Assembly (NCBI GenBank): GCA_913052465.1
Contig: CAJXEN010000004.1
Span: 1-37,484 of the forward strand
Direction: 5' to 3'
From: an uncultured Oceanospirillaceae bacterium
GTDB taxonomy: Bacteria > Pseudomonadota > Gammaproteobacteria > Pseudomonadales > Balneatricaceae
DNA: 37,484 bases
The position numbers and the translations under genes were made by a program. Of the stretch, positions 1 to 20,964 are shown piece by piece (the first letter of the stretch is position 1; every line of letters starts with the position of its first letter). Under the pieces are notes generated by a model that searched no databases, had not been told where the DNA came from, and saw nothing but the letters and a program-made list of their open reading frames with translations.

Positions 1-1318
1 AGAAAAAAGCGTGAAAAGGTATTGGCATCAAATAGGCAATGTTGAGTAGTGAACTAATCATTAAAATGACCATAATAACTAATTGTTCAGTTTCTAATGT
101 CGCCATTAACAAGTACCACTTGCTCCATGTTCCACCTGTGGGCGGTAAACCAATAATGCTAAGACTACCAATAAAGAACGCCACCATAGTAAAAGGCATT
201 TGCCTGCCCAAGCCTCGCATTTCGCTTATATTACTTTTATGTGCAGCAACCAAAATTGCACCAGCACAGAAGAATAAAGTAATTTTTCCAAAAGCATGCA
301 TGGCTATATTCATCGAACTCGCTATAACGCCTGATGATGTTGCTAGGAGCACACCAATAGTAATATAGCCCAGTTGGCTAACTGTTGAGTAAGCAAGCCT
401 TGCTTTTAAATTATCCTGTCGCATAGCAACGAACGAGGCAAGCAATACTGAAGCGCCACCTAGATATAGTAAAAACTGGGTAGTTGGTAAAACGACTAAT
501 AGATCGAGGCCAAAAATAAACACACCAACTTTCATTACGGTGAAAACACCAGCCTTAACTACAGCCACCGCATGCAGTAGTGCACTGACAGGTGTTGGTG
601 CAACCATCGCAGCAGGTAGCCATCGATGGAAGGGCATAATGGCAGCTTTACCAATGCCAAAAACAAACAGTACTAAAATTATACCTAGCAAAGTGGTATT
701 TGTGTCTACTGGAAATACACCGCCAGGGGTGAAATCTAGCGTACCAGAAAGCTCCCATGTACCAACAATTGCAAACAGAAAAAATGCTACAGAGGTGCCA
801 AGTAAAATACCAAGGTAAGTTCGCCCACCCTTTTTTGCATCCTCCGTGCCAGAGTGAGTCACAAGCGGATAGGTGGAGAGTGTGAGCACCTCATAAAAGA
901 TAAACAAAGTAAACAAGTTATCTGCAAAGGCAACCCCCATGACACTGCCTATGGCAATGGCAAAACAACAGAAAAACCGCGTTTGATGGTCCTCATTATG
1001 GCCACGCATATAACCAATGGAATAGATAATAGTCACAAACCAGAGAAAGCTAGCAATCAATGAGAATATCATCCCCAATGGTTCTACAGAAAAACTCAAA
1101 CTCAGTCCAGGTAAAATCTGTAGCCAATGAACAGTGGTGGTTTCACCAGCATCTAAACCTAGATAAATAGTAACCACTGCATAAAAGACACATAGGCTGG
1201 TAGCAAGGCTAACAGCCTCTCTTAAGTTTTGATGGTTCCTAAAGGCAATGATGCCAAGTGTGGCGAAGATGGGTAATATAATACACAGCTGCAGCAACAT
1301 TTCTAAAGAGTTGGTCAT
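1..1318 (-). CDS. MrpD/MrpA-like proton-translocating antiporter subunit (NuoL/M/N family), 3' end truncated by the left window edge
   Basis: My reverse-strand translation is open from ATG at 1318 (MTNSLEMLLQLCIILPIFATLGIIAFRNHQNLREA...GKAAIMPFHRWLPAAMVAPTPVSALLHAVAVVKAG...) to position 1 with no stop. The motif PFHxWLPxAMxAPTPVSALLHAxxVVKAG is typical of the family. The start overlaps the upstream stop as ATGA (1315-1318). Absent from the ORF track because it runs off the edge. Confidence 0.88.
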   Translation of the reverse strand, partial: MTNSLEMLLQLCIILPIFATLGIIAFRNHQNLREAVSLATSLCVFYAVVTIYLGLDAGETTTVHWLQILPGLSLSFSVEPLGMIFSLIASFLWFVTIIYSIGYMRGHNEDHQTRFFCCFAIAIGSVMGVAFADNLFTLFIFYEVLTLSTYPLVTHSGTEDAKKGGRTYLGILLGTSVAFFLFAIVGTWELSGTLDFTPGGVFPVDTNTTLLGIILVLFVFGIGKAAIMPFHRWLPAAMVAPTPVSALLHAVAVVKAGVFTVMKVGVFIFGLDLLVVLPTTQFLLYLGGASVLLASFVAMRQDNLKARLAYSTVSQLGYITIGVLLATSSGVIASSMNIAMHAFGKITLFFCAGAILVAAHKSNISEMRGLGRQMPFTMVAFFIGSLSIIGLPPTGGTWSKWYLLMATLETEQLVIMVILMISSLLNIAYLMPIPFHAFF

Positions 1319-2793
1319 GGGGCCACTCCAAACAAGCTTTGCGCCGCACCCGTGGCAACTTCTACAGTCATACGTGTATCAATGCCAAAGTATACATTCG
1401 CTAACACTAACATCCACACAGGTAAAAGGAAGGCCATGGGTGCTTCTTTAACAGGGTCCTTGCCAGTTATTGGGGTCTTAAAATAGGCTGTTTCAACAAT
1501 ACGCCAAACATAAACTACTGCCAATAAAGAACCTAATAAAACTAGGCCAGCCACCGGCCACCAACCCTTGTCAATCGCTGCTGTAACCAGATACCATTTG
1601 CTGACAAACCCAACCGTTAGAGGCACGCCAATAAGGCTTAACCCACCTATGACAATGGCAGCCATGGTTAATGGCATTTGTCGCCCTAAACCACGAAAGT
1701 CATCTATCCTAGTGCTGCCAATACGGTACATCACTGCACCCAAGGCTAAAAATAATGCTCCTTTCATCAGTGCATGATTAAACATGTGTAAGAGCATGGC
1801 ACTGAGCCCAGCATGGGTAGACATACTGAAACCAACAATCATATAACCGATCTGAGCTACACTAGAATAAGCAAATACATGTTTAACATTTTGCTGATAA
1901 ATAGCCACCGTGGAGGCTACGAATATGCCCAATAAACCCAGGGCCAAAAATAAGGTTTCCATAGGTAAAGTGGTAAAAGAAAATGACACGCCAAAAATAG
2001 AAAAGGTAAAACGAATCAGTAAGTAAGCTGCTACTTTAGTAGAGGTTGCAGCAAAAAACGTGGTTACTATTGACGGTGCATAAGTGTAGGCGTTAGGTAG
2101 CCAAAAATGCAGTGGGAACAAAGCTAGTTTTAAACAAACCCCAATAATAAAAAACACATAAGCGGTAGTGACTGTCCGTGTTTCTGCAACTTCAGGTAGT
2201 CGCGCTGCAAGATCGACCATATTAAGTGTACCTGTCATTTGGTACATTAGCCCTATCCCAATCAAGATAAACGTAGCACCGATAGTACCCATAATGAGGT
2301 ATTGAAAGGATGCCCAAAGCGCTCGTCGGTCTTTGCCAAGTGCAATTAAGGAATATGCTGACAGGGAGGATATCTCTAGAAAAACGAAAACGTTGAATGC
2401 ATCCCCAGTGGTAACTATACCCAACATGCCTGTTAATGAAAGTAGGTAGAGGATGTAAAAAAGAGTTTGTTTATTTTCAGGAATCTCTTTTTCAATGCTG
2501 GTTTGGGCAGCCAGTAAAACCACAGTGCTCACGCCAGAGATGATTAAGGCAATAAAGGCGTTGAGCTTATCTATACGGTACTCAATACCCCAAGGTGGGC
2601 TCCAGCCACCTAATTCATAGCTAACAGTGCCCGTTGACATGACCTGCTGAAGCAGAAAAATGCTAATAAAAAAAGTGATTGTGCTCACTAATAAAGTGAA
2701 CAACCAAACTAATTTTGGCCTGCTTAGGATCAAGCATGCCGGCGCTGCCATAAGTGGCACAATAACTTGCAATATAGGGAGGTGCGCTAACAC
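1315..2793 (-). CDS. mrpD: Na+/H+ antiporter subunit D (MrpD/MnhD)
   Basis: 492 aa NuoL/M/N-type protein (LPLHFWLPNAYTYAPSIVTTFFAATSTKVAAYLLIRF); sits in an mrp operon. Confidence 0.88.
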   Translation of the reverse strand: MLAHLPILQVIVPLMAAPACLILSRPKLVWLFTLLVSTITFFISIFLLQQVMSTGTVSYELGGWSPPWGIEYRIDKLNAFIALIISGVSTVVLLAAQTSIEKEIPENKQTLFYILYLLSLTGMLGIVTTGDAFNVFVFLEISSLSAYSLIALGKDRRALWASFQYLIMGTIGATFILIGIGLMYQMTGTLNMVDLAARLPEVAETRTVTTAYVFFIIGVCLKLALFPLHFWLPNAYTYAPSIVTTFFAATSTKVAAYLLIRFTFSIFGVSFSFTTLPMETLFLALGLLGIFVASTVAIYQQNVKHVFAYSSVAQIGYMIVGFSMSTHAGLSAMLLHMFNHALMKGALFLALGAVMYRIGSTRIDDFRGLGRQMPLTMAAIVIGGLSLIGVPLTVGFVSKWYLVTAAIDKGWWPVAGLVLLGSLLAVVYVWRIVETAYFKTPITGKDPVKEAPMAFLLPVWMLVLANVYFGIDTRMTVEVATGAAQSLFGVAP

Positions 2794-3176
2794 TGCTGAG
2801 GTTCCTTTTCTTGACTGGCCATTACCTGATTATCCATGGCCTGAATTTCATCCTCGTTAACACTGCCATAGGCTTCCTTAATCCTAACGGTTAGGGCAAG
2901 GCCCAATGCAGTGGTTGCTATACCCACAACAATGGCTGTGAGAATAAGCACGTGAGGTAGGGGATTTGAATATAGTATGATGCCCTCTTGCCATATTGGC
3001 GCAGTACCACCATCTACTTTTCCAAGGCTAATATAAAAAATAAACACGGAGATCTGAAAAATATTAAGCCCGACAATTTTTTTAATAAGATGGCCATGAG
3101 CAATAATGATATAAAAACCGATCATCATCAAAACGATAACAATCCAGTAGTTATAAAGGCCCAGTATCATGGTCAT
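2787..3176 (-). CDS. mrpC: Na+/H+ antiporter subunit C (MrpC/MnhC, NuoK-like)
   Basis: 129 aa, GFYIIIAHGHLIKKIVGLNIFQISVFIFYIS and DPLPHVLILTAIVVGIATTALGLAL-type motif typical of MnhC. Confidence 0.88.
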   Translation of the reverse strand: MTMILGLYNYWIVIVLMMIGFYIIIAHGHLIKKIVGLNIFQISVFIFYISLGKVDGGTAPIWQEGIILYSNPLPHVLILTAIVVGIATTALGLALTVRIKEAYGSVNEDEIQAMDNQVMASQEKEPQQC

Positions 3177-4147
3177 AACAATTCACCTTTATTAGCCTTT
3201 TGAAATTGACTGCGACCTACAAAGCTGTAAAAAATAATGATCATCACTGAAGCTACGGTCAAACCTACGCCCAATTCGATTAAAAGAATACCTAAATGTT
3301 GCCCAGCAATGGGGTCGGCAGCTAGTACGTTATAATCTAGGAAACTACCACCATTTAACATCGATACTAGACCAACGCTTCCATAAACCAGAACTCCAAG
3401 AGCAGATAGCATTTGCACTACAGGCTGAGTGATAACTCGTCGGGCGGCGCCGAGGCCAAATAACATGGCATACAGAATAATACCTGCAGCAAATATCACA
3501 CCGGCCTGAAAGCCACCACCTGGACCATAGTCACCATGGAATTGGACATAGAACGCGTATAGTACGATAAAGGGGATCATGGTTTTTATCACGATGCGTA
3601 AAATCAAATGCTTTTCATGCATCGAGTCATTAATAGCTTCCATTACCGCATCATCTTCTGGGCGTCGTGCTACTGATAGTAATGCTAAAACGCCAATTCC
3701 AGCAGTAAATATAACTGTAACTTCACCAAAGGTATCAAACCCTCGATAACTGGCAAGTACCGATGTCACCATGTTAGGCACACCAATTTCTTGAATTGAA
3801 TCATAAATATAGTGAGGTCCAACGTGCTGGTGGACAGGGGCATCTGCAGAACCAAAATAGGGCATGTCAAAGGTCCCATATATGAGTAACCCTCCAGTAA
3901 CGATAACCGCCACAAATGCCATCAGTGGCTTATGGGTGGCCTCATGATCTGTGCGCCCGGTCATTGCTACAGTTGTCAGCATAAGTAGTGTCGATATACC
4001 TGCACCTATAGACGCTTCCGTAAATGCCACGTCAACGGCGTCCATTGCCACAAAAAAACTAGCACAAACAAGGCCATAAATACCGGCTAGCATGACCACG
4101 GCAAACATATCTTTAATTCTACTAATGGCAATGGCAATAACAACCAA
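3173..4147 (-). CDS. mrpB: Fused DUF4040 (MbhD/MrpA C-terminal-like) + MbhE-like + MnhB subunit of Mrp antiporter
   Basis: N-terminal MFAVVMLAGIYGLVCASFFVAMDAVDVAFTEASIGAGISTLLML is DUF4040-like. The middle region (FDTFGEVTVIFTAGIGVLALL) is MbhE-like. The C-terminal part (FYVQFHGDYGPGGGFQAGVIFAAGIILYAM) is MnhB. The tracked start is TTG, so the true start may lie upstream. Confidence 0.82.
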   Translation of the reverse strand: MVVIAIAISRIKDMFAVVMLAGIYGLVCASFFVAMDAVDVAFTEASIGAGISTLLMLTTVAMTGRTDHEATHKPLMAFVAVIVTGGLLIYGTFDMPYFGSADAPVHQHVGPHYIYDSIQEIGVPNMVTSVLASYRGFDTFGEVTVIFTAGIGVLALLSVARRPEDDAVMEAINDSMHEKHLILRIVIKTMIPFIVLYAFYVQFHGDYGPGGGFQAGVIFAAGIILYAMLFGLGAARRVITQPVVQMLSALGVLVYGSVGLVSMLNGGSFLDYNVLAADPIAGQHLGILLIELGVGLTVASVMIIIFYSFVGRSQFQKANKGELL

Positions 4148-4170
4148 AAGTGTTAGTAAGACAATATCGA

Positions 4171-4530
4171 CTAAGATTTCGATGATTTATCTCCTGCGCT
4201 AGTGTCTTCTTCTAAAGGGTTTATATTCATATTTATCAGTGGCTGTAATTTATTGAGAACTGCAGCCTGACCTAATGCATGACTGGCTGCTGGGCTTATA
4301 AACAACGTCATCAATAGAATCATCATAAGCTTTATAATAACTAGCAGGTCAGGGTTTTGCAGCATTAACCCAATAAGTATCATTGCTGCAGCTAGCGTGT
4401 CAGTAACACCTACGGCATGCATACGAGTATAAAAGTCTGGAAAGCGCAATATTCCCACTCCACCTGAAAGACAGAGGAAACTACCAAACAGGAGACAAAA
4501 AGAACTCAACAATGTCAGCACAGTATCCAT
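4171..4530 (-). CDS. mrpG: Na+/H+ antiporter subunit G (MrpG/MnhG)
   Basis: 119 aa; GGVGILRFPDFYTRMHAVGVTDTLAAAMILIGLML is a clear MnhG/PhaG motif. Confidence 0.9.
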   Translation of the reverse strand: MDTVLTLLSSFCLLFGSFLCLSGGVGILRFPDFYTRMHAVGVTDTLAAAMILIGLMLQNPDLLVIIKLMMILLMTLFISPAASHALGQAAVLNKLQPLINMNINPLEEDTSAGDKSSKS

Positions 4531-4823
4531 TATGAATCCCTCTTTGCTGGCTCGGCTACAGGGCCGTTATGCTTAGCATTAAATGCGTCAGACAAACGCA
4601 ATACTCCGATCACACTGACAAAGTTAATCAGTGCATAGACCATGGCAATATCTAAAAATTCTGGCCGGCCCATGACAAAACCCAAGAGGGCAATAAGCAA
4701 CACTGTTTTAGTGCCAAACATGTTCACTGCCAGAATTCGGTCATACAGGCTAGGACCCACTACTGCGCGAATAATTGCTAATATCATGACCACAAGAACG
4801 GCCAGAGTTGCTGCTATAATCAT
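4530..4823 (-). CDS. mrpF: Na+/H+ antiporter subunit F (MrpF/MnhF)
   Basis: 97 aa; RAVVGPSLYDRILAVNMFGTKTVLLIALLGF motif of MrpF; overlaps mrpE. Confidence 0.88.
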   Translation of the reverse strand: MIIAATLAVLVVMILAIIRAVVGPSLYDRILAVNMFGTKTVLLIALLGFVMGRPEFLDIAMVYALINFVSVIGVLRLSDAFNAKHNGPVAEPAKRDS

Positions 4824-5293
4824 GAGTTCTCCAACTGACTAACCCGCCGATCCATGTCACCAGATTCAAGTGCTTCAATATTTTCCCTGATTAAGGCATG
4901 TACCATTATTTCATTACCCACCAGCCCTAGCGCCACAGTGCCTGGTGTTAATGTAATTGAATTTGCGTAGATCACTTTTCCAACGTCAGTTTTCTGGCTA
5001 GCCTTAACTGTTATTACGGTAGGGGAAATTGATTTGTTCCCAAGCCAGATGTGTTTAATGACTGTAAGATTAGCAACTACAATTTCTTTCGCCAGCCAGA
5101 TCCCAAATTTTGGAGCTGTTAGTGACAAGTTAATAGATTGCGACTCATGGTCTACTACGTCCATACGATGGGTAATAAATACAACGATGGCGATAGAAAC
5201 GGCACCCAAGGCAAGAATCAGATAGGTATAGTGTCCAGAGTTAAGCAACCAAAATAGTGCTAGAACAATAGAAAGGTTTATTTTATAACGCAT
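4820..5293 (-). CDS. mrpE: Na+/H+ antiporter subunit E (MrpE/MnhE)
   Basis: 157 aa; YANSITLTPGTVALGL...VHAL motif typical of MrpE. Confidence 0.88.
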   Translation of the reverse strand: MRYKINLSIVLALFWLLNSGHYTYLILALGAVSIAIVVFITHRMDVVDHESQSINLSLTAPKFGIWLAKEIVVANLTVIKHIWLGNKSISPTVITVKASQKTDVGKVIYANSITLTPGTVALGLVGNEIMVHALIRENIEALESGDMDRRVSQLENS

Positions 5294-5800
5294 ATTTTTT
5301 TACTCGTAAGCAACTTGAAAAGCCCCCACATGACTGGATTTTCAGTCCCTGGCTTTGCAGAAAAATGCTGGTGAGTTGCCATTTTGGACGCAGTAACGAC
5401 CGCCAGATACGATGGGCCAATCTCGCGTATAGTACCTCACAATCCTATCTGTCTCAACGCCGCAGGCCAATTCAGGCTGTTTAATTTCTATGGCTGTAAG
5501 TTTAGTTTATTGGTAATTCAAAAATCTGTAAAAATTAGCCGATGATTTTTCAATAGGTTCTGCTAGGCAGCTATACACTTAATTTGATCTGATTTTTTGC
5601 ATTGCCGTTTTTTATGACTTGTCTAATATACCAGCCACACATGTACCCGTTGCTTTTTTGAGCCATCAATTTGGTTGTCTTGGCACATAGCACTAGGTGG
5701 TACGCAAAAATAATGTCAATCGACAGGTCGATAAAACAGATAAAAGCAGAGCCCATTTACAAACTAGTAACAAAAGCCCAAAGTACTGCGATACCTTGAG

Positions 5801-5818
5801 GCCTTTATTGCTAAAGGC
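5801..5818 (-). other. Short hairpin downstream of pit gene (7-bp stem, GCAA loop on minus strand)
   Basis: Minus strand GCCTTTA-GCAA-TAAAGGC, 7 nt past the pit stop codon; no good U-tract, so not called a terminator. Confidence 0.4.
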
Positions 5819-5825
5819 TAGAGAA

Positions 5826-7100
5826 TTAAGAAAAAATGGCTTTAAATATGTAGAAAAAGGTAATCGATAATATTGCGCCAGCTGGAAGGGTAATTACCCA
5901 TGAAGTGAATATAGTTGCCACTATACGTAAGTTAATCGCAGCTAAACCGCGTGCTAAACCCACACCTAATACCGCACCTACAAGGGTGTGTGTGGTGGAG
6001 ATAGGTAAGCCAATGCCAGAGGCAAGTACCACTGTTGCAGAGGCGCCTAGTGTGGCTGCGAAGCCACGGCTAGGAGTTAACTCTGTGATCTTGGTGCCTA
6101 TAGTCGCCATTACTTTATAGCCATAGGTAACAAGGCCAACAACGATGCCTACACCACCGACTAAAAGTATCCATGCAGGCATACTAGATTTGGCAGTTAC
6201 AGCACCAGATTTGATAGTGGCGATAGCGGCTGCCATCGGGCCTACAGCGTTTGCTACATCGTTTGAACCGTGAGCAAAAGCCATCGCGCAAGCAGTAAAA
6301 ATCATTAACACAGCAAATACTTTTTCTACGTTGGCAAAGCGGTCTTCTGATTCAATGGCTTTGTTACGCTTTACACGGGTTAACATCATGCTGCCGATCA
6401 CTGTAACCAAAAGGCCCACTGCAGCTGCAACCAGCGACATTTCGAAGTAATTTAGACTAAAACCAATGTCCTTAAATACATGTTTTAGGCCTTTAATTAA
6501 GGTCACCATAGTGATCATAAAGCCCACCATAAACATATACATAGGTACATATCGTTTGGCGTTTTCAAATGGCGTTTCAGTGTCTAATATCAACCGCTGA
6601 ACACTCCTGAATAGCATGTAGGATATGGTGCTTGCCAACACGGGTGAAACAATCCAACTGGCCGCGATAGTGCTAACTTTGCTCCAATTCACGGCATCTA
6701 CAGAGATGGCAACAGCAGCAAAACCGACGATGGCACCCACGATAGAATGCGTGGTCGATACTGGCCAACCTAGGATAGTTGCGATTAATAACCAAGTGCC
6801 TGCAGCAAGAAGTGCTGAAAGCATGCCGTACACTAAGTATTCTGGAGTACCCTGTAGCGAAAGGGGATCAATAATACCTTTGCGAATGGTGGCAGTCACT
6901 TCACCACCTGCTAAATAGGCGCCTGCAAACTCAAAGACCATAGCGATGATGATCGCTTGCTTTAATGTAATAGCTCCCGACCCCACAGAGGTACCCATGG
7001 CGTTAGCCACATCATTGGCACCTACACCCCAGGCCATAAAAACACCAAATATGATGGCTAAAATGAGCAAAATTTGACCGTATTCGTTTAAAACTTCCAT
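5826..7100 (-). CDS. pitA: Inorganic phosphate transporter, Pit family
   Basis: 424 aa; GANDVANAMGTSVGSGAIT and AHGSNDVANAVGPMAAA repeats, the PHO4/PitA signature. Confidence 0.93.
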   Translation of the reverse strand: MEVLNEYGQILLILAIIFGVFMAWGVGANDVANAMGTSVGSGAITLKQAIIIAMVFEFAGAYLAGGEVTATIRKGIIDPLSLQGTPEYLVYGMLSALLAAGTWLLIATILGWPVSTTHSIVGAIVGFAAVAISVDAVNWSKVSTIAASWIVSPVLASTISYMLFRSVQRLILDTETPFENAKRYVPMYMFMVGFMITMVTLIKGLKHVFKDIGFSLNYFEMSLVAAAVGLLVTVIGSMMLTRVKRNKAIESEDRFANVEKVFAVLMIFTACAMAFAHGSNDVANAVGPMAAAIATIKSGAVTAKSSMPAWILLVGGVGIVVGLVTYGYKVMATIGTKITELTPSRGFAATLGASATVVLASGIGLPISTTHTLVGAVLGVGLARGLAAINLRIVATIFTSWVITLPAGAILSITFFYIFKAIFS

Positions 7101-7164
7101 GGGGTTTTCTCAAAGCTTTGTGGGTATTTATTATCGGTATTTATGCACAGACTTATCTATTGAG

Positions 7165-7839
7165 TTAGCGAGCAATAATAACTTGGATCTGTTCACCAGC
7201 ACTTTGTGCATGGTCAGCTAGGTTGCCAATTGATTCGATGGTTTTATACATAAACATTGCATCAAGAGGTGGCGAATCTGTTTCTATTTCGTGTAATTTT
7301 GCACGTAGAGTGATTTGACGCTTATCATTTTTGTCTTCTGCTTTTTCTAGTTTGGTAATACACCGGTTAATCCGGTCAATTTCACGCCCACCAAACCCTG
7401 AACCTATTAGTTCGTCAAGCTCATCGATCACTACCTTAGCCTCTACGGCTACAGCGATGGCAGATTTAACGTATGCCGTCATATCTGTGGCAATTTTTTT
7501 AGGGATTACTTGCTTACGACCCAAAATGATACCGGCAATATCTTTAGCAGTGTTACAAATCTTATCTTGTTTGCTAAGGAGCTGAATAAGGTCTGAGCGA
7601 TTAATAGGCATAAACAAACTTTTCGGCAAGTGGAGACGAATGTCTTGTTTTTGATCATCAGCCTGGCCTTCAAACACTGCAATGGCGTTATAAGTAGCTT
7701 CTACGGCTTCCCAGTCTTCCTTAATCACAGCTTGGAAGAATGGGGTTAACAGTTCCACACATTGCACGACTGTGTGCATGTGATTTTGTAACGGTTTAAT
7801 CGGTGAATGGCCAAACAAACTAAGGATGGGATTTGCCAT
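7165..7839 (-). CDS. PhoU-like DUF47 protein (TIGR00153 family)
   Basis: 224 aa; starts MANPILSLFGHSPIKPLQNHM, DQKQDIRLHLPKSLFMPINRSDLIQLLSKQDKI; next to the pit gene, the usual pairing. Confidence 0.88.
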   Translation of the reverse strand: MANPILSLFGHSPIKPLQNHMHTVVQCVELLTPFFQAVIKEDWEAVEATYNAIAVFEGQADDQKQDIRLHLPKSLFMPINRSDLIQLLSKQDKICNTAKDIAGIILGRKQVIPKKIATDMTAYVKSAIAVAVEAKVVIDELDELIGSGFGGREIDRINRCITKLEKAEDKNDKRQITLRAKLHEIETDSPPLDAMFMYKTIESIGNLADHAQSAGEQIQVIIAR

Positions 7840-7861
7840 GTGAATTGCCTCTACAAATAAT

Positions 7862-7899
7862 AAGGGTGCCTATAATCGGGGTGCATTATAGGCACCCTT
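7862..7899. other. 15-bp perfect inverted repeat between phoR and the DUF47 gene
   Basis: AAGGGTGCCTATAAT - cggggtgc - ATTATAGGCACCCTT, read directly in the sequence. Confidence 0.75.
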
Positions 7900-7939
7900 T
7901 GTTAAGGTAATATAAAGATTGTGAGTTTTTTTGAATTAA

Positions 7940-9709
7940 TTACTTTTGATCAGACAATGGAATTTCAACCGTAAAGGTTGAACCATGGTTAAGTTTACTT
8001 TTTAGATGCAAATTACCCCTATGGTTTTGCACGATATGTTTAACGATGGCAAGGCCAAGTCCAGTGCCACCAAGGGATTGTGAGCGAGCTTTGTTGACTC
8101 GATAGAAGCGTTCAAAAATCCGCTCTTGATCCGCCTCGTCAATACCTAAGCCGTTGTCTTTTACTGTCAGCACCGCGAGCCCAGACTGAGCCTTAATTTG
8201 TACGGTCACTGTGCCCATTTCTGCAGTGTATTTAATAGCGTTATCAATCAAATTAGTGGCCATTTGACCCAAGGCATTGTCGTCTCCAAGCAACGTCATC
8301 TGGCCACCTTCTATTTCCAACTCTAAAACTACTTTATGGCTTTGGGCTACAGCCTGTAAGTTAGCGCACACCCTTTGTATCACCTGCGTTAGATCTACTT
8401 GGGTATTAAATGCTTTGTCATTGCTTTCTAATCGAGATAAGGCCAAGAGGTCGGAGACTAGGTCTGACAAGCGTATAGATTGGCCATGAATTTTACGCAT
8501 AAAGCGCTGCCTAATCGTGGCATCTATGGTTTCACTCTCTATTAAGGTTTCTGCAAAACCACGAATCGCAGTAATGGGAGTTTTTAACTCATGGGACGCG
8601 TTAGCAACGAAATCTGCACGCATTTTATCGATACGCTGAACATCAGTAATATCTTGCAATACTAGTATGGCACCTGCTTGATGGGATTGTTTTAACAAGG
8701 TGACATGCAACCGATAGTGGCGCGCAAAAGTATACCCATCTAGTTGGATGGTCTGCTCCACACTGGATTGTTGTTGGTGGCACTGCATAAAAGCTTGGTC
8801 TAGGTTATTAGATCTATCGATGTCTTTTAATGATTGGCCTAAACAACGCTCACTACTGGTGCGCAACATACGGCATGCAGCAGCATTAACATGGGTAATA
8901 AGCCCTTCACTGGTCACAGTGATTACACCTTCGTTCATACTTTTAAGGATGGTGGAAAGTTGGTCACGCTCAGTCTTTATGATGTCAAACCGCTGGGCCG
9001 AAATATCAGCCATTTGGTTGAGCGAACGAGCTAAGTCACCTATTTCATCCCGTCTATGGCTAGGAATGCGTAATTGATAACGACCGTGGGCATAGTTATT
9101 GGCAATCAGCGTCATTTGCCTAAGAGGGCGGGCAAAACTCATGGCTAACCAATACCCTATAAATAGCGCGATTAATCCCGTCAGGCTCGCGGCGATGACG
9201 ATTACCCGGCGTAAATAGTTGATTTCTTTATCAATGCGTTCTGTAGACAAAGCAGTGCGGATATAACCCAGATCTGAGTTACTAGCTGTGGCTGGTACGG
9301 CCACATACAACATGGTTTTTTGTAAAGTTCTACTATAGCGCTGCGACTGTCCTATTGTTGATTTATTGGCCTGTATTATTTCTGGCCGATAGCGATGGTT
9401 ATCCATTTGTTCAGGGGTAAACTCAGAATCAGCGATCACTATCCCCTCTTTTGTGAGTAAGGTAATGCGGGTGTCGACACGGCGGCCAATCTGCTCCACA
9501 GTCTGCTGTATCTGTGTTTGTGTTTGGCCACCTATGTTAGGAAATGATTGCTGCAAAATGAAGGCTTGGCTAGACAAGTTGTTACTGATGTCCCGTAAAC
9601 TTGCCTGCTCAATTTGACGCTGAACCATTAGTCCAACAATTAAAATACTAAATAATATAACAACTGCAAAACCGGCGTAAAGTCTTATAAATATAGGAGA
9701 GTGGCGCAT
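7940..9709 (-). CDS. phoR: Phosphate regulon sensor histidine kinase PhoR (periplasmic sensor, HAMP, PAS, HisKA, HATPase)
   Basis: 589 aa; ANASHELKTPITAIRGFAETL H-box, NAIKYT N-box, GLGLAIVKHIV G-box; follows phoB. Confidence 0.88.
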   Translation of the reverse strand: MRHSPIFIRLYAGFAVVILFSILIVGLMVQRQIEQASLRDISNNLSSQAFILQQSFPNIGGQTQTQIQQTVEQIGRRVDTRITLLTKEGIVIADSEFTPEQMDNHRYRPEIIQANKSTIGQSQRYSRTLQKTMLYVAVPATASNSDLGYIRTALSTERIDKEINYLRRVIVIAASLTGLIALFIGYWLAMSFARPLRQMTLIANNYAHGRYQLRIPSHRRDEIGDLARSLNQMADISAQRFDIIKTERDQLSTILKSMNEGVITVTSEGLITHVNAAACRMLRTSSERCLGQSLKDIDRSNNLDQAFMQCHQQQSSVEQTIQLDGYTFARHYRLHVTLLKQSHQAGAILVLQDITDVQRIDKMRADFVANASHELKTPITAIRGFAETLIESETIDATIRQRFMRKIHGQSIRLSDLVSDLLALSRLESNDKAFNTQVDLTQVIQRVCANLQAVAQSHKVVLELEIEGGQMTLLGDDNALGQMATNLIDNAIKYTAEMGTVTVQIKAQSGLAVLTVKDNGLGIDEADQERIFERFYRVNKARSQSLGGTGLGLAIVKHIVQNHRGNLHLKSKLNHGSTFTVEIPLSDQK

Positions 9710-9710
9710 G

Positions 9711-10418
9711 CTAGGGTGCTTCGTTTGCTAGGGTTTTAGTATAGTTGGGGTCACAGCGGTAACCCACTCCGCGTACAGTTTCTATCGCTGATGCGGCCTC
9801 TCCCAACTGTTTGCGAACGCCACGGATGTGCACATCAACGTTACGATCGACTACTTCAGATTGCTCACCTAAGGCTGACAATATGAGCTGTTCTCTTGAA
9901 AATGCCCTGCCAGGCTGTGCCATCAAGGTATGCAACAGTTTAAATTCTGTGGTGGTCAGTTTCAACATTTTGCCATTTAGGCTGCAATGGTAGGCATCTA
10001 GGTCCAATAATAAAGAGCCCATGGAAAGTATGTTTGGGTTAGGTTTTCGGCGTAAGGCCACTTTGATTCTAGCTAATAATTCAGCTTGGCTAAATGGCTT
10101 GGTCATATAGTCATCAGCGCCCCTGCTAAGACCGCCAATAACGTCTGCCTCTTCGCTTCGAGCCGACAACATAATAATAGGTATTAACTGGGTTTTAGGG
10201 TCTGCTTTTAGTCGCTCACACACCTGCATGCCGTTTAGGCCGGGCAACATGATATCAAGTAATATTAAATCAGGATGTTTTGTTTGCGCTAGCTCTAAAC
10301 CTTTAATACCATCGTTAGCTAAAGTAACAGTATAGCCAGCCCTTTCAAGGTTGTAAGCGATAATCTCTTGAATATCAGCTTCATCTTCAATACATAAAAT
10401 GTTGTGTTCGCTGGACAT
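9711..10418 (-). CDS. phoB: Phosphate regulon response regulator PhoB (OmpR family)
   Basis: 235 aa; receiver (LILLDIMLPGLNGMQVCERLK) plus winged-helix domain (EVVDRNVDVHIRGVRKQLGEAASAIETVRGVGYRC). Confidence 0.9.
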   Translation of the reverse strand: MSSEHNILCIEDEADIQEIIAYNLERAGYTVTLANDGIKGLELAQTKHPDLILLDIMLPGLNGMQVCERLKADPKTQLIPIIMLSARSEEADVIGGLSRGADDYMTKPFSQAELLARIKVALRRKPNPNILSMGSLLLDLDAYHCSLNGKMLKLTTTEFKLLHTLMAQPGRAFSREQLILSALGEQSEVVDRNVDVHIRGVRKQLGEAASAIETVRGVGYRCDPNYTKTLANEAP

Positions 10419-10424
10419 AGATGG

Positions 10425-11783
10425 TTATTTCCCGATACAAAATGATCCAAAAATACGGCCTAGTAAGTCATCACTGGTGAAGCTTCCGGTAATCTCGTTT
10501 AAACATTCTTGGGCTAAGCGTAAGTCTTCAGCCAATAATTCACCGGCCTGGCTGTAAACCAGTTGTACGGCCCCTTCTTGTAATAGTGTTCGACATCGCT
10601 CTAATGCATCTAAGTGACGTCTGCGGGCACTAAAACCACCTTCTAGGGTAGCTTGATAGCCAACTGCTTGTTTTAACTGGCGCCGCAGGAGGTCTAAGCC
10701 GTGACCCTTTTTTGCACTTAAGTAAATACAGTCTACACCATCAACTTGAGTTAGGTTAGGTAGGTCGTGAGTGAGGTCTATTTTATTACGAACTAAAGTG
10801 AGTTGGCTGGGCATAGGTTGGGGGCCCATTAATCTAAGCCAGTGCTCCTTTGGAGACGCTAAATCGTGAGCATCTTGTAGCAATAATATCTGGTCGGCTT
10901 GACCAATGGCTTCAACAGCACGTTCAATGCCGATTTTTTCTACTTTGTCTGGGCTTTCACGCAAACCTGCGGTGTCTACAATATGTAACGGTAGGCCATC
11001 TATATTGATTGATTCTTTTAAAAGATCTCTTGTGGTACCTGCAATATCTGTGACGATAGCACGGTCTTGTCCTGCTAGTGCATTGAGCAAGCTTGACTTA
11101 CCAGCGTTAGGGGCGCCAGCGATCACCACTTGCATGCCTTCTTGTAAAAGAGTGCCTTGGTGAGCTTGTTGCAATAAGAGATCTAACTCTGCCTGAGCGT
11201 TATCTAATAGTGCCGCCACCTTGCCATCGGCTAAAAAATCAATCTCTTCTTCCGGAAAATCAATGGCAGCTTCCACGTAAAGGCGCAGATAAATGAGGTT
11301 TTCAACCAGGGTATTAATATGCGTGGAAAAGACTCCCTGCAAGGAACGAAAGGCGTTTCTAGCGGCTTGTTCTGAGCTAGCGTCTATTAGGTCAGCAATC
11401 GATTCTGCTTGAGCTAGGTCCATTTTATCATTTAAAAATGCGCGCTCAGAAAACTCTCCAGGGCGTGCTATACGTGCCCCAAGGTGAATCAGTTCACGCT
11501 GCAATACATCCATTACCACCTGGCCGCCATGGCCCTGAAATTCGAATACGTCCTCGCCCGTGAAAGACTCGGGCCCTTTAAAATAGAGGCTTATACCGGC
11601 ATCAATCTGGTCACCATTGTTGTCTAAAAAAGCGCCATAGTGAGCATGGCGAACGATGCCTTGATTACGGCTTAGTTGTTGGCCGTAGCTCAGGGCACTA
11701 GGACCAGATAGGCGAATAATACCCACACCACCCCGGCCTGGGGGAGTAGTTTGAGCGCAGATGGTGTCTAAATCTGATTGCAT
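10425..11783 (-). CDS. mnmE: tRNA uridine-5-carboxymethylaminomethyl(34) synthesis GTPase MnmE
   Basis: 452 aa; [14 protein letters not shown] G1 motif, [17 protein letters not shown]-terminal FGSFCIGK. Confidence 0.97.
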
Positions 11784-14098: not shown

Positions 14099-14233
14099 TT
14101 ACGCGCTTAGGACTTTACGGCCTTTGGCACGACGTGCATTGATGATGGCGCGTCCACCTGGAGTTGACATACGTGCACGGAAACCGTGAGTGCGTTTGCG
14201 CTTTAGGACGCTAGGTTGAAACGTTCTTTTCAT
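14099..14233 (-). CDS. rpmH: 50S ribosomal protein L34
   Basis: 44 aa reverse-strand [47 protein letters not shown], an unmistakable L34; below the ORF-track size cutoff. Confidence 0.97.
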
Positions 14234-14527
14234 GATCGGTCTCGCAAAATTAAGTTAGTGGCCAAAGTTTTGGCGTTGAAAATCTAGGGGCAAAATTATA
14301 TGAGAGGGAAAATCGAATAGCAAGCCTGATTCGCTGTTTAACTTACAAAATGACATAAAAACATTAACTTTATTCGCTGGCTCTAAATATTAAGCCTTAT
14401 CTTATGTTATCGGGCAGCGCCTGTGGATAACTTTAGGCACTTGGTGATAAAATAAAGCCTTTATTGAACCGACTAAACACATCCGTTTTTGACTTGTGAT
14501 TTAGTTTAATTTGGCTTTACTTTATAT
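14234..14527. other. Probable chromosomal replication origin (oriC) in the rpmH-dnaA intergenic region
   Basis: AT-rich 294-bp gap between divergent rpmH and dnaA, containing a perfect DnaA box (TGTGGATAA, 14422-14430). Gene polarity switches here. The rpmH-dnaA position of oriC is established for pseudomonads and relatives. Confidence 0.75.
14422..14430 (-). promoter_or_regulatory. DnaA box (TTATCCACA)
   Basis: Plus strand TGTGGATAA, exact consensus. Confidence 0.8.
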
Positions 14528-17254: not shown

Positions 17255-18343
17255 ATGTCTGTTCAGCATCTGAGTATTCAGCGGTTGCGTAACCTACAAC
17301 AAGTGGACGTTGAGTTTGATGTAGGCATCAATCTGCTTTATGGACTAAATGCCAGTGGCAAAACTAGCATTTTAGAAGCACTGTACATGCTCGCTTTAGG
17401 GCGCTCTTTTCGGAGTTTAAAGTTGGCTTCTGTTATTACCCAAGGTCACACAGATTGTCTGCTGTTTGCAAAGCTTAGAAACCCCCAGGGTGTTATTGAC
17501 TCATTAGGTATGACCCGTCGTTTGGATGGTGACCATAGCGTGCGCCTCAATGGTGAAACTCTATCTTCTATTGCGGAGCTTGCGAGCCTATTGCCTGTGC
17601 AGCTAATCGACCCTAGTACTGTGGGTTTGATTGAGGCAGGTCCAAGTGTTCGTAGGCAGTATTTAGATTGGGGAGTGTACCACCATAACCCCAGTTTTTT
17701 TGGCCTGTGGAAGCAGGCCCAGAGGCTACTAAAACAACGTAACAGCGCGCTTAAATGTGGTACAATGGCCGCCACTGTAAGGGCTAGTTTTGACCCGGGC
17801 TTGGTAGTTGTCGCGGAGCAGTTAAATAAGCTTAGAGCGGCGTATTTGAAGCTCCTTGAGCCGGTTTTCTTCCAGTTACTGTCTGGCTTGGTAGATTTGC
17901 CAGATTTAAAGCTAGGTTACTATTCTGGTTGGTCTGCAAATCGAGATTATTCCGACATACTTGAAGAAACCTTGGAGCGGGACTTGCGACTTGGTTATAC
18001 TCAGCGTGGTCCCCAGCGTGCAGATGTTAAACTAACGATCAATGGCGTTAACGCTGTTGAGCGCTTGTCCCGTGGTCAGCAAAAGCTGGTTGTGGTAGCG
18101 CTTAAGCTTGCCCAAGGCAAGTTATTAAGCGAGGTAGAGGGCCGCAAGTGTGTGTTTTTGGTTGACGACTTAGCAGCTGAGTTGGATTGGTCCCATCGGC
18201 GAGAGATATGTAGACAGTTAGTGAATTTAGACACGCAAGTGTTTGTCACTAGTGTGGGCCCTAATGAGCTAACGGGTTGTTGGCCAGAAGGTGAAAAAAT
18301 AAAAATGTTTCACGTGAAACAAGGACAAGTCAGTCAAGACTAG
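17255..18343 (+). CDS. recF: DNA replication and repair protein RecF
   Basis: 362 aa; GLNASGKTSILEALYMLALGRSFRS Walker A, LSRGQQKLVVVALKLAQ signature, LVDDLAAELD Walker B. Confidence 0.97.
   Translation: MSVQHLSIQRLRNLQQVDVEFDVGINLLYGLNASGKTSILEALYMLALGRSFRSLKLASVITQGHTDCLLFAKLRNPQGVIDSLGMTRRLDGDHSVRLNGETLSSIAELASLLPVQLIDPSTVGLIEAGPSVRRQYLDWGVYHHNPSFFGLWKQAQRLLKQRNSALKCGTMAATVRASFDPGLVVVAEQLNKLRAAYLKLLEPVFFQLLSGLVDLPDLKLGYYSGWSANRDYSDILEETLERDLRLGYTQRGPQRADVKLTINGVNAVERLSRGQQKLVVVALKLAQGKLLSEVEGRKCVFLVDDLAAELDWSHRREICRQLVNLDTQVFVTSVGPNELTGCWPEGEKIKMFHVKQGQVSQD
18306..18321. promoter_or_regulatory. parS-like centromere site, perfect 16-bp palindrome TGTTTCACGTGAAACA
   Basis: Exact bacterial parS consensus, lying inside the 3' end of recF and encoding part of ...KMFHVKQGQVSQD. 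Confidence 0.88.
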
Positions 18344-18402: not shown

Positions 18403-20823
<2,421 letters not shown>

Positions 20824-20848: not shown

Positions 20849-20876
20849 AAAAAAGCCTCCATATGGAGGCTTTTTT
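20849..20876. terminator. Symmetric (bidirectional) Rho-independent terminator between convergent gyrB and glyS
   Basis: AAAAAAGCCTCCATATGGAGGCTTTTTT, a perfect 28-nt palindrome with A and T tracts, so usable from both strands. Confidence 0.9.
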
Positions 20877-20922
20877 GTAGCTGGAGAGTCATTTACGCAT
20901 TAAGTGTAAACTTACGGGATGA

Positions 20923-20938
20923 TGTTTCACGTGGAACA
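20923..20938. promoter_or_regulatory. parS-like centromere site TGTTTCACGTGGAACA
   Basis: One mismatch from perfect symmetry; embedded in a 28-nt inverted repeat GGATGATGTTTCACGTGGAACATCATCC (20917-20944) between gyrB and glyS. Confidence 0.85.
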
Positions 20939-20964
20939 TCATCCTTTGGCTGGGTGTGCTAGCC

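Follow-up and report, generated by a model that had tools for sequence, protein, structure and literature searches.

The recF–gyrB region and its parS sites

The window, a 37,484 nt stretch of DNA from an uncultured member of the Oceanospirillaceae, carries recF and gyrB beside a putative replication origin, together with two parS sites (Table 1). The first of these matches the consensus TGTTYCACGTGRAACA exactly, at 16 of 16 positions, and is thus the flawless palindrome that the earlier note had described. Its reading in frame within the RecF tail likewise stands, with the codons (A)TG TTT CAC GTG AAA CA(A) giving M F H V K Q in the context KMFHVKQG. Dinucleotide shuffles produce 0.17 parS matches (up to three mismatches) per window versus the two seen, which have zero and one mismatch; for exact copies, the window's composition predicts 1.2e-5 by chance over the window, and 7e-4 over the whole 2.29 Mb assembly. 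As a control, the parS pattern read backwards returned no match in any of the 56 genomes searched.

Table 1. Features of the recF–gyrB region (positions within the window)
Feature	Position	Strand	Remarks
Putative oriC, rpmH–dnaA gap	about 14233..14527	.	inferred from conserved gene order
recF, 362 aa	17255..18343	+	tail ...IKMFHVKQGQVSQD
Eroded internal site of recF, at the place of parS1 in P. aeruginosa	17676..17691	.	6 mismatches; in ...LDWGVYHHNP
parS, perfect 16 bp palindrome TGTTTCACGTGAAACA	18306..18321	.	in frame in recF, M-F-H-V-K-Q
gyrB	18406..20823	+	between both parS sites
Extended 28 bp palindrome around second parS	20917..20944	.	one mismatched pair
Second parS TGTTTCACGTGGAACA (reverse complement TGTTCCACGTGAAACA)	20923..20938	.	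between convergent gyrB and glyS

The distance from the recF-tail site to the putative oriC was measured as about 3.9 kb, in keeping with the 4 kb proposed earlier, the origin itself being placed from gene order only; this gap contains one exact DnaA box (14422–14430, minus strand). A further origin-proximal consensus match, on which the earlier note had made its reading depend, is present as the second parS, which departs from a perfect palindrome by one mismatch and, read from the opposite strand, is the canonical variant TGTTCCACGTGAAACA. Both canonical sites fall within about 6.5 kb of the putative oriC, and no other was detected in the 2.29 Mb, 84 % complete assembly. Near-matches with two or three mismatches (contigs C159, C18, C35 and others) were set aside, as the backwards control gave 16 versus 10. 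The pairing of parS1 with parS2, whereby an internal recF site lies about 620–630 bp upstream of the tail site, is not retained here, the internal site being eroded.

Amongst relatives, the gyrB–glyS parS is often enclosed in a longer palindrome, the flanking letters of which vary between species whilst their symmetry is kept; additional symmetric pairs per side number 11 in L238 (1304–1341) and eight in both L237 (1146–1177) and L239 (2777–2808). Such flank symmetry is mostly missing at recF parS sites. The extension may be a terminator hairpin separating the two convergent genes, or may have arisen through template switching that made the flanks symmetric. Just 3′ of gyrB, about 45 bp ahead of the second parS, there is also a near-perfect inverted repeat (AAAAAAGCCTCCATATGGAGGCTTTTTT, 20850–20877), which is likely a bidirectional terminator.

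It is extremely improbable that the recF palindrome instead acts as a transcription terminator, or as a CACGTG regulator site, independently of ParB. Whilst a weak RNA hairpin can be folded from it (z −1.9), there is no terminator-like match at 18306–18321, leaving the terminator reading unsupported; moreover, the match spans all 16 parS bases, those genomes without ParB that were examined do not have the site, and its counterparts are proven in Pseudomonas aeruginosa.

The partition genes of the host

The genome encodes one chromosomal-type ParB, with ParB_N, HTH_ParB and ParB_C domains, in the gene order mnmG–rsmG–parA–parB–atpI on contig C142 of the same assembly, apart from the recF contig. 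The assignment of parAB to the genome bearing the recF parS is made by binning and by linkage in relatives, the assembly being 84 % complete and the contigs separate; parB and recF share one contig in four relatives (G004, G008, G011 and G013). When aligned to Caulobacter ParB (6t1f, with residue numbers in the deposited chain read as 10 lower than in the paper), the host protein keeps Q162, G170, K171, S172, R173, N178, G201 and R204, which are parS contacts and specificity residues (PMC7383237). The remaining two specificity positions, 179 and 184, are occupied by Leu and Gln, respectively, and vary among ParBs (PMC7383237).

Codon constraint in close relatives

The recF-tail codons were compared across 11 genomes with the tail parS, comprising ten of the same genus and G022 from another. 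The palindrome is intact (16/16) in all 11, amid surrounding codons that vary. Its four degenerate codons (TTT CAC GTG AAA, for F, H, V and K) are invariant, whilst in the rest of recF the codon is invariant in just eight of the 139 columns that hold an invariant, degenerate amino acid. Where the codon straddling the end of the palindrome is free to vary it does so, appearing as CAC, CAT or CAA.

Four genomes of the same genus (G003, G005, G011 and G014; L232–L235) are missing the recF-tail parS, and their RecF tails read FTLQQG, FTIEQG, FAIEHG and FSIEQG. The alignment of C-termini suggested in the earlier note bears it out to the extent that His and Lys/Glu are gone where the palindrome is gone. 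The Phe, an aliphatic residue and the Gly are nevertheless kept in these tails, as they are in Escherichia coli RecF (ending MFTVEKGKITD), and for this reason F, V and G are RecF's own motif, F-x-V-x-x-G. The His, the Lys/Glu and the choice of codons, by comparison, are imposed by the centromere. Consequently, the earlier proposal that the last RecF residues are dictated by parS holds for His, Lys/Glu and the codons, but not for F, V and G.

These data bear on whether RecF simply needs FHVKQ, with the palindrome a by-product of codon choice. Retention of F, V and G in the absence of parS, both in E. coli (MFTVEKG) and in many relatives, is what would be expected of conservation at the protein level; however, H and K/E are lost in the clade of the same genus whose recF has no tail parS, and synonymous positions are frozen in the tail for codons with shares of 35 % (GTG), 45 % (CAC) and 50 % (GAA) in the rest of recF. 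Codon invariance, along with residue loss in the parS-less clade, led to this explanation being rejected as extremely improbable.

A further alternative, in which function rests with the intergenic parS at 20923 and the copy in recF drifts as a relic, is also very unlikely, if marginally less so. In its favour, the internal recF site is already eroded and the tail site is missing in four genomes of the same genus; against this, the ten same-genus keepers and G022 hold the tail site at 16/16 whilst neighbouring codons vary, a pattern that is not one of drift. Its loss in four genomes does indicate that an individual recF-tail parS is dispensable where others exist. In those four genomes parS is kept solely downstream of gyrB, where it occurs two or three times rather than once, as if the number of origin-near sites were maintained.

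Breadth across Gammaproteobacteria

Amongst recF genes from 100 families of Gammaproteobacteria, each family represented by a single gene, in a sample that leaned towards recFs more like that of the window and from which the least similar matches were absent, 88 bear a tail parS at two mismatches or fewer (61 exact, 22 with one mismatch and five with two). The reading frame is identical in all 88, and a control stretch of recF gave no parS match in any of the 100 genes. An internal recF parS, about 620–630 bp upstream, is found in 88 of the 100 at up to two mismatches and in 85 at up to one, with 75 genes having both the tail and the internal site. Within the 85 tails of the form FHV(K/E)(H/Q/R), valine is always encoded by GTG and Lys/Glu always by GAA or AAA (85/85 for each), with CAC in 83/85; corresponding shares in the rest of recF are 35 % for GTG, 45 % for CAC, 50 % for GAA and 61 % for AAA. 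Some class members (L070:1187, L080:1165, L113 and L116) carry an additional parS overlapping, or just past, the recF stop codon.

One frame of parS can encode the RecF motif, as xTG TTY CAC GTG RAA CAN, or x-F-H-V-K/E-H/Q. The wobble position of the Phe codon co-varies with the opening base of the Lys/Glu codon across 83 relatives and class members, the combinations being C–G in 31, T–A in 26, T–G in 22 and C–A in four; this follows the prediction of a palindrome, although overall base composition may contribute. Absence of the tail parS was recorded for G203 and G226, class members without a ParB match, and for recF of E. coli, an organism without par genes (PMC4368675). Beyond the class, none of the eleven recF loci listed as belonging to the same phylum has a tail parS.

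The two-site dual-coding pattern as such is well supported across the class. A wider proposition is more tentative, and is perhaps rather less likely to be right than wrong: that most Gammaproteobacteria have two dual-coding parS sites in recF at fixed codon positions, both over native RecF motifs; that the partition system would thus have acted on the form of the RecF tail from an early point in the history of the class; and that the Phe wobble base predicts Lys versus Glu. Such an arrangement might also couple the occupancy of ParB to the expression of recF/gyrB or to the function of RecF.

Known counterparts

In P. aeruginosa PA7, recF has sites at the same two places, the internal one reading TGTTCCACGTGGAACC and the tail one TGTTCCACGTGGAACA, and these are identical to the published parS1 and parS2 (PMC4368675), which have been located within recF, at a distance of about 4 kb from oriC (PMC3909081, PMC5521831). 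The kinds of experiment proposed in the earlier note, binding of the gel shift type and synonymous recoding with a segregation assay, have been done on these counterparts: the intragenic parS sites were recoded with the protein unchanged and ParB binding was measured (PMC4368675). With parS2 alone P. aeruginosa segregates normally, a parS-null strain does not, and single parS mutants have no phenotype (PMC4368675).

On sequence grounds, the recF-tail site of the window is best filed as the counterpart of P. aeruginosa parS2, with which it shares its gene, its place and frame at the RecF C-terminus (MFHVEHG in P. aeruginosa), a perfect palindrome and a distance of about 4 kb from oriC. The two differ in that parS2 (TGTTCCACGTGGAACA) encodes Glu whereas the window site encodes Lys, and in that P. 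aeruginosa, with a total of 10 sites, still has parS1 inside the gene, whilst here the internal counterpart has eroded and the only other site found is intergenic, after gyrB. As parS1 and parS2 lie in recF and have been shown to be ParB-bound, recoded and tested, the arrangement is a known one and not a new kind. Xanthomonas citri similarly has a parS in a coding 3′ part of the dnaA–dnaN–recF–gyrB cluster, about 3 kb from oriC, but reported at the 3′ end of dnaN, as annotated there, rather than of recF (PMC3937727). In repABC replicons, too, centromere sites are under selection inside genes, albeit with another parS sequence and a plasmid/chromid partition system (PMC9040568).

Within the literature searched, which had the main survey (Livny 2007) outside it, statements on recF parS concern P. 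aeruginosa only, and none was found on class-wide, same-frame dual coding, which is the most interesting point here. The Caulobacter literature mentions a hot spot for transposon insertion around recF/gyrB.

Proposed function

The ParA/ParB operon, the second parS, the synonymous constraint, absence from ParB-less genomes and the correspondence to parS2 together support the palindrome at 18306–18321 as almost certainly a chromosomal parS of the host ParB; since it is laid over a RecF motif that one parS frame can encode, the site would be dual-coding. There is a high probability that it is functional in the source organism, where ParB binding and a role in segregation are inferred.

ParB proteins of this family nucleate at parS, need CTP to leave and spread by sliding, with ParA moving the complex (PMC7053999, PMC8367383). 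By this family mechanism, a host ParB dimer would load on the recF-tail parS and, through CTP clamp formation and spreading, build a partition complex near oriC that ParA would move in segregation; no sign of a different partition mechanism was seen in the window. With the site overlaid on the native C-terminal motif F-x-V-x-x-G, purifying selection at the DNA level would fix the synonymous codons as well as the His and Lys/Glu. As excess ParB in P. aeruginosa lowers expression of genes around parS1–4, including gyrB (PMC3909081), a mild effect of ParB on recF–gyrB expression is possible in the source organism.

One segment of DNA would thereby serve as both protein code and centromere, upon a protein motif pre-adapted to host parS, and probably marks where the partition complex of this lineage forms. 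Its relatives provide natural cases of gain and loss for the study of parS turnover, with the internal site lost, the tail site kept or lost, and the post-gyrB site gained.

Gene content of the origin region varies within one genus. In the window, phoB–phoR, a pit-type transporter and mrp antiporter genes adjoin mnmE (1315–11783), as they do in G013; G004 has a shorter arrangement by mnmE, with mnmG–rsmG–parAB nearby.
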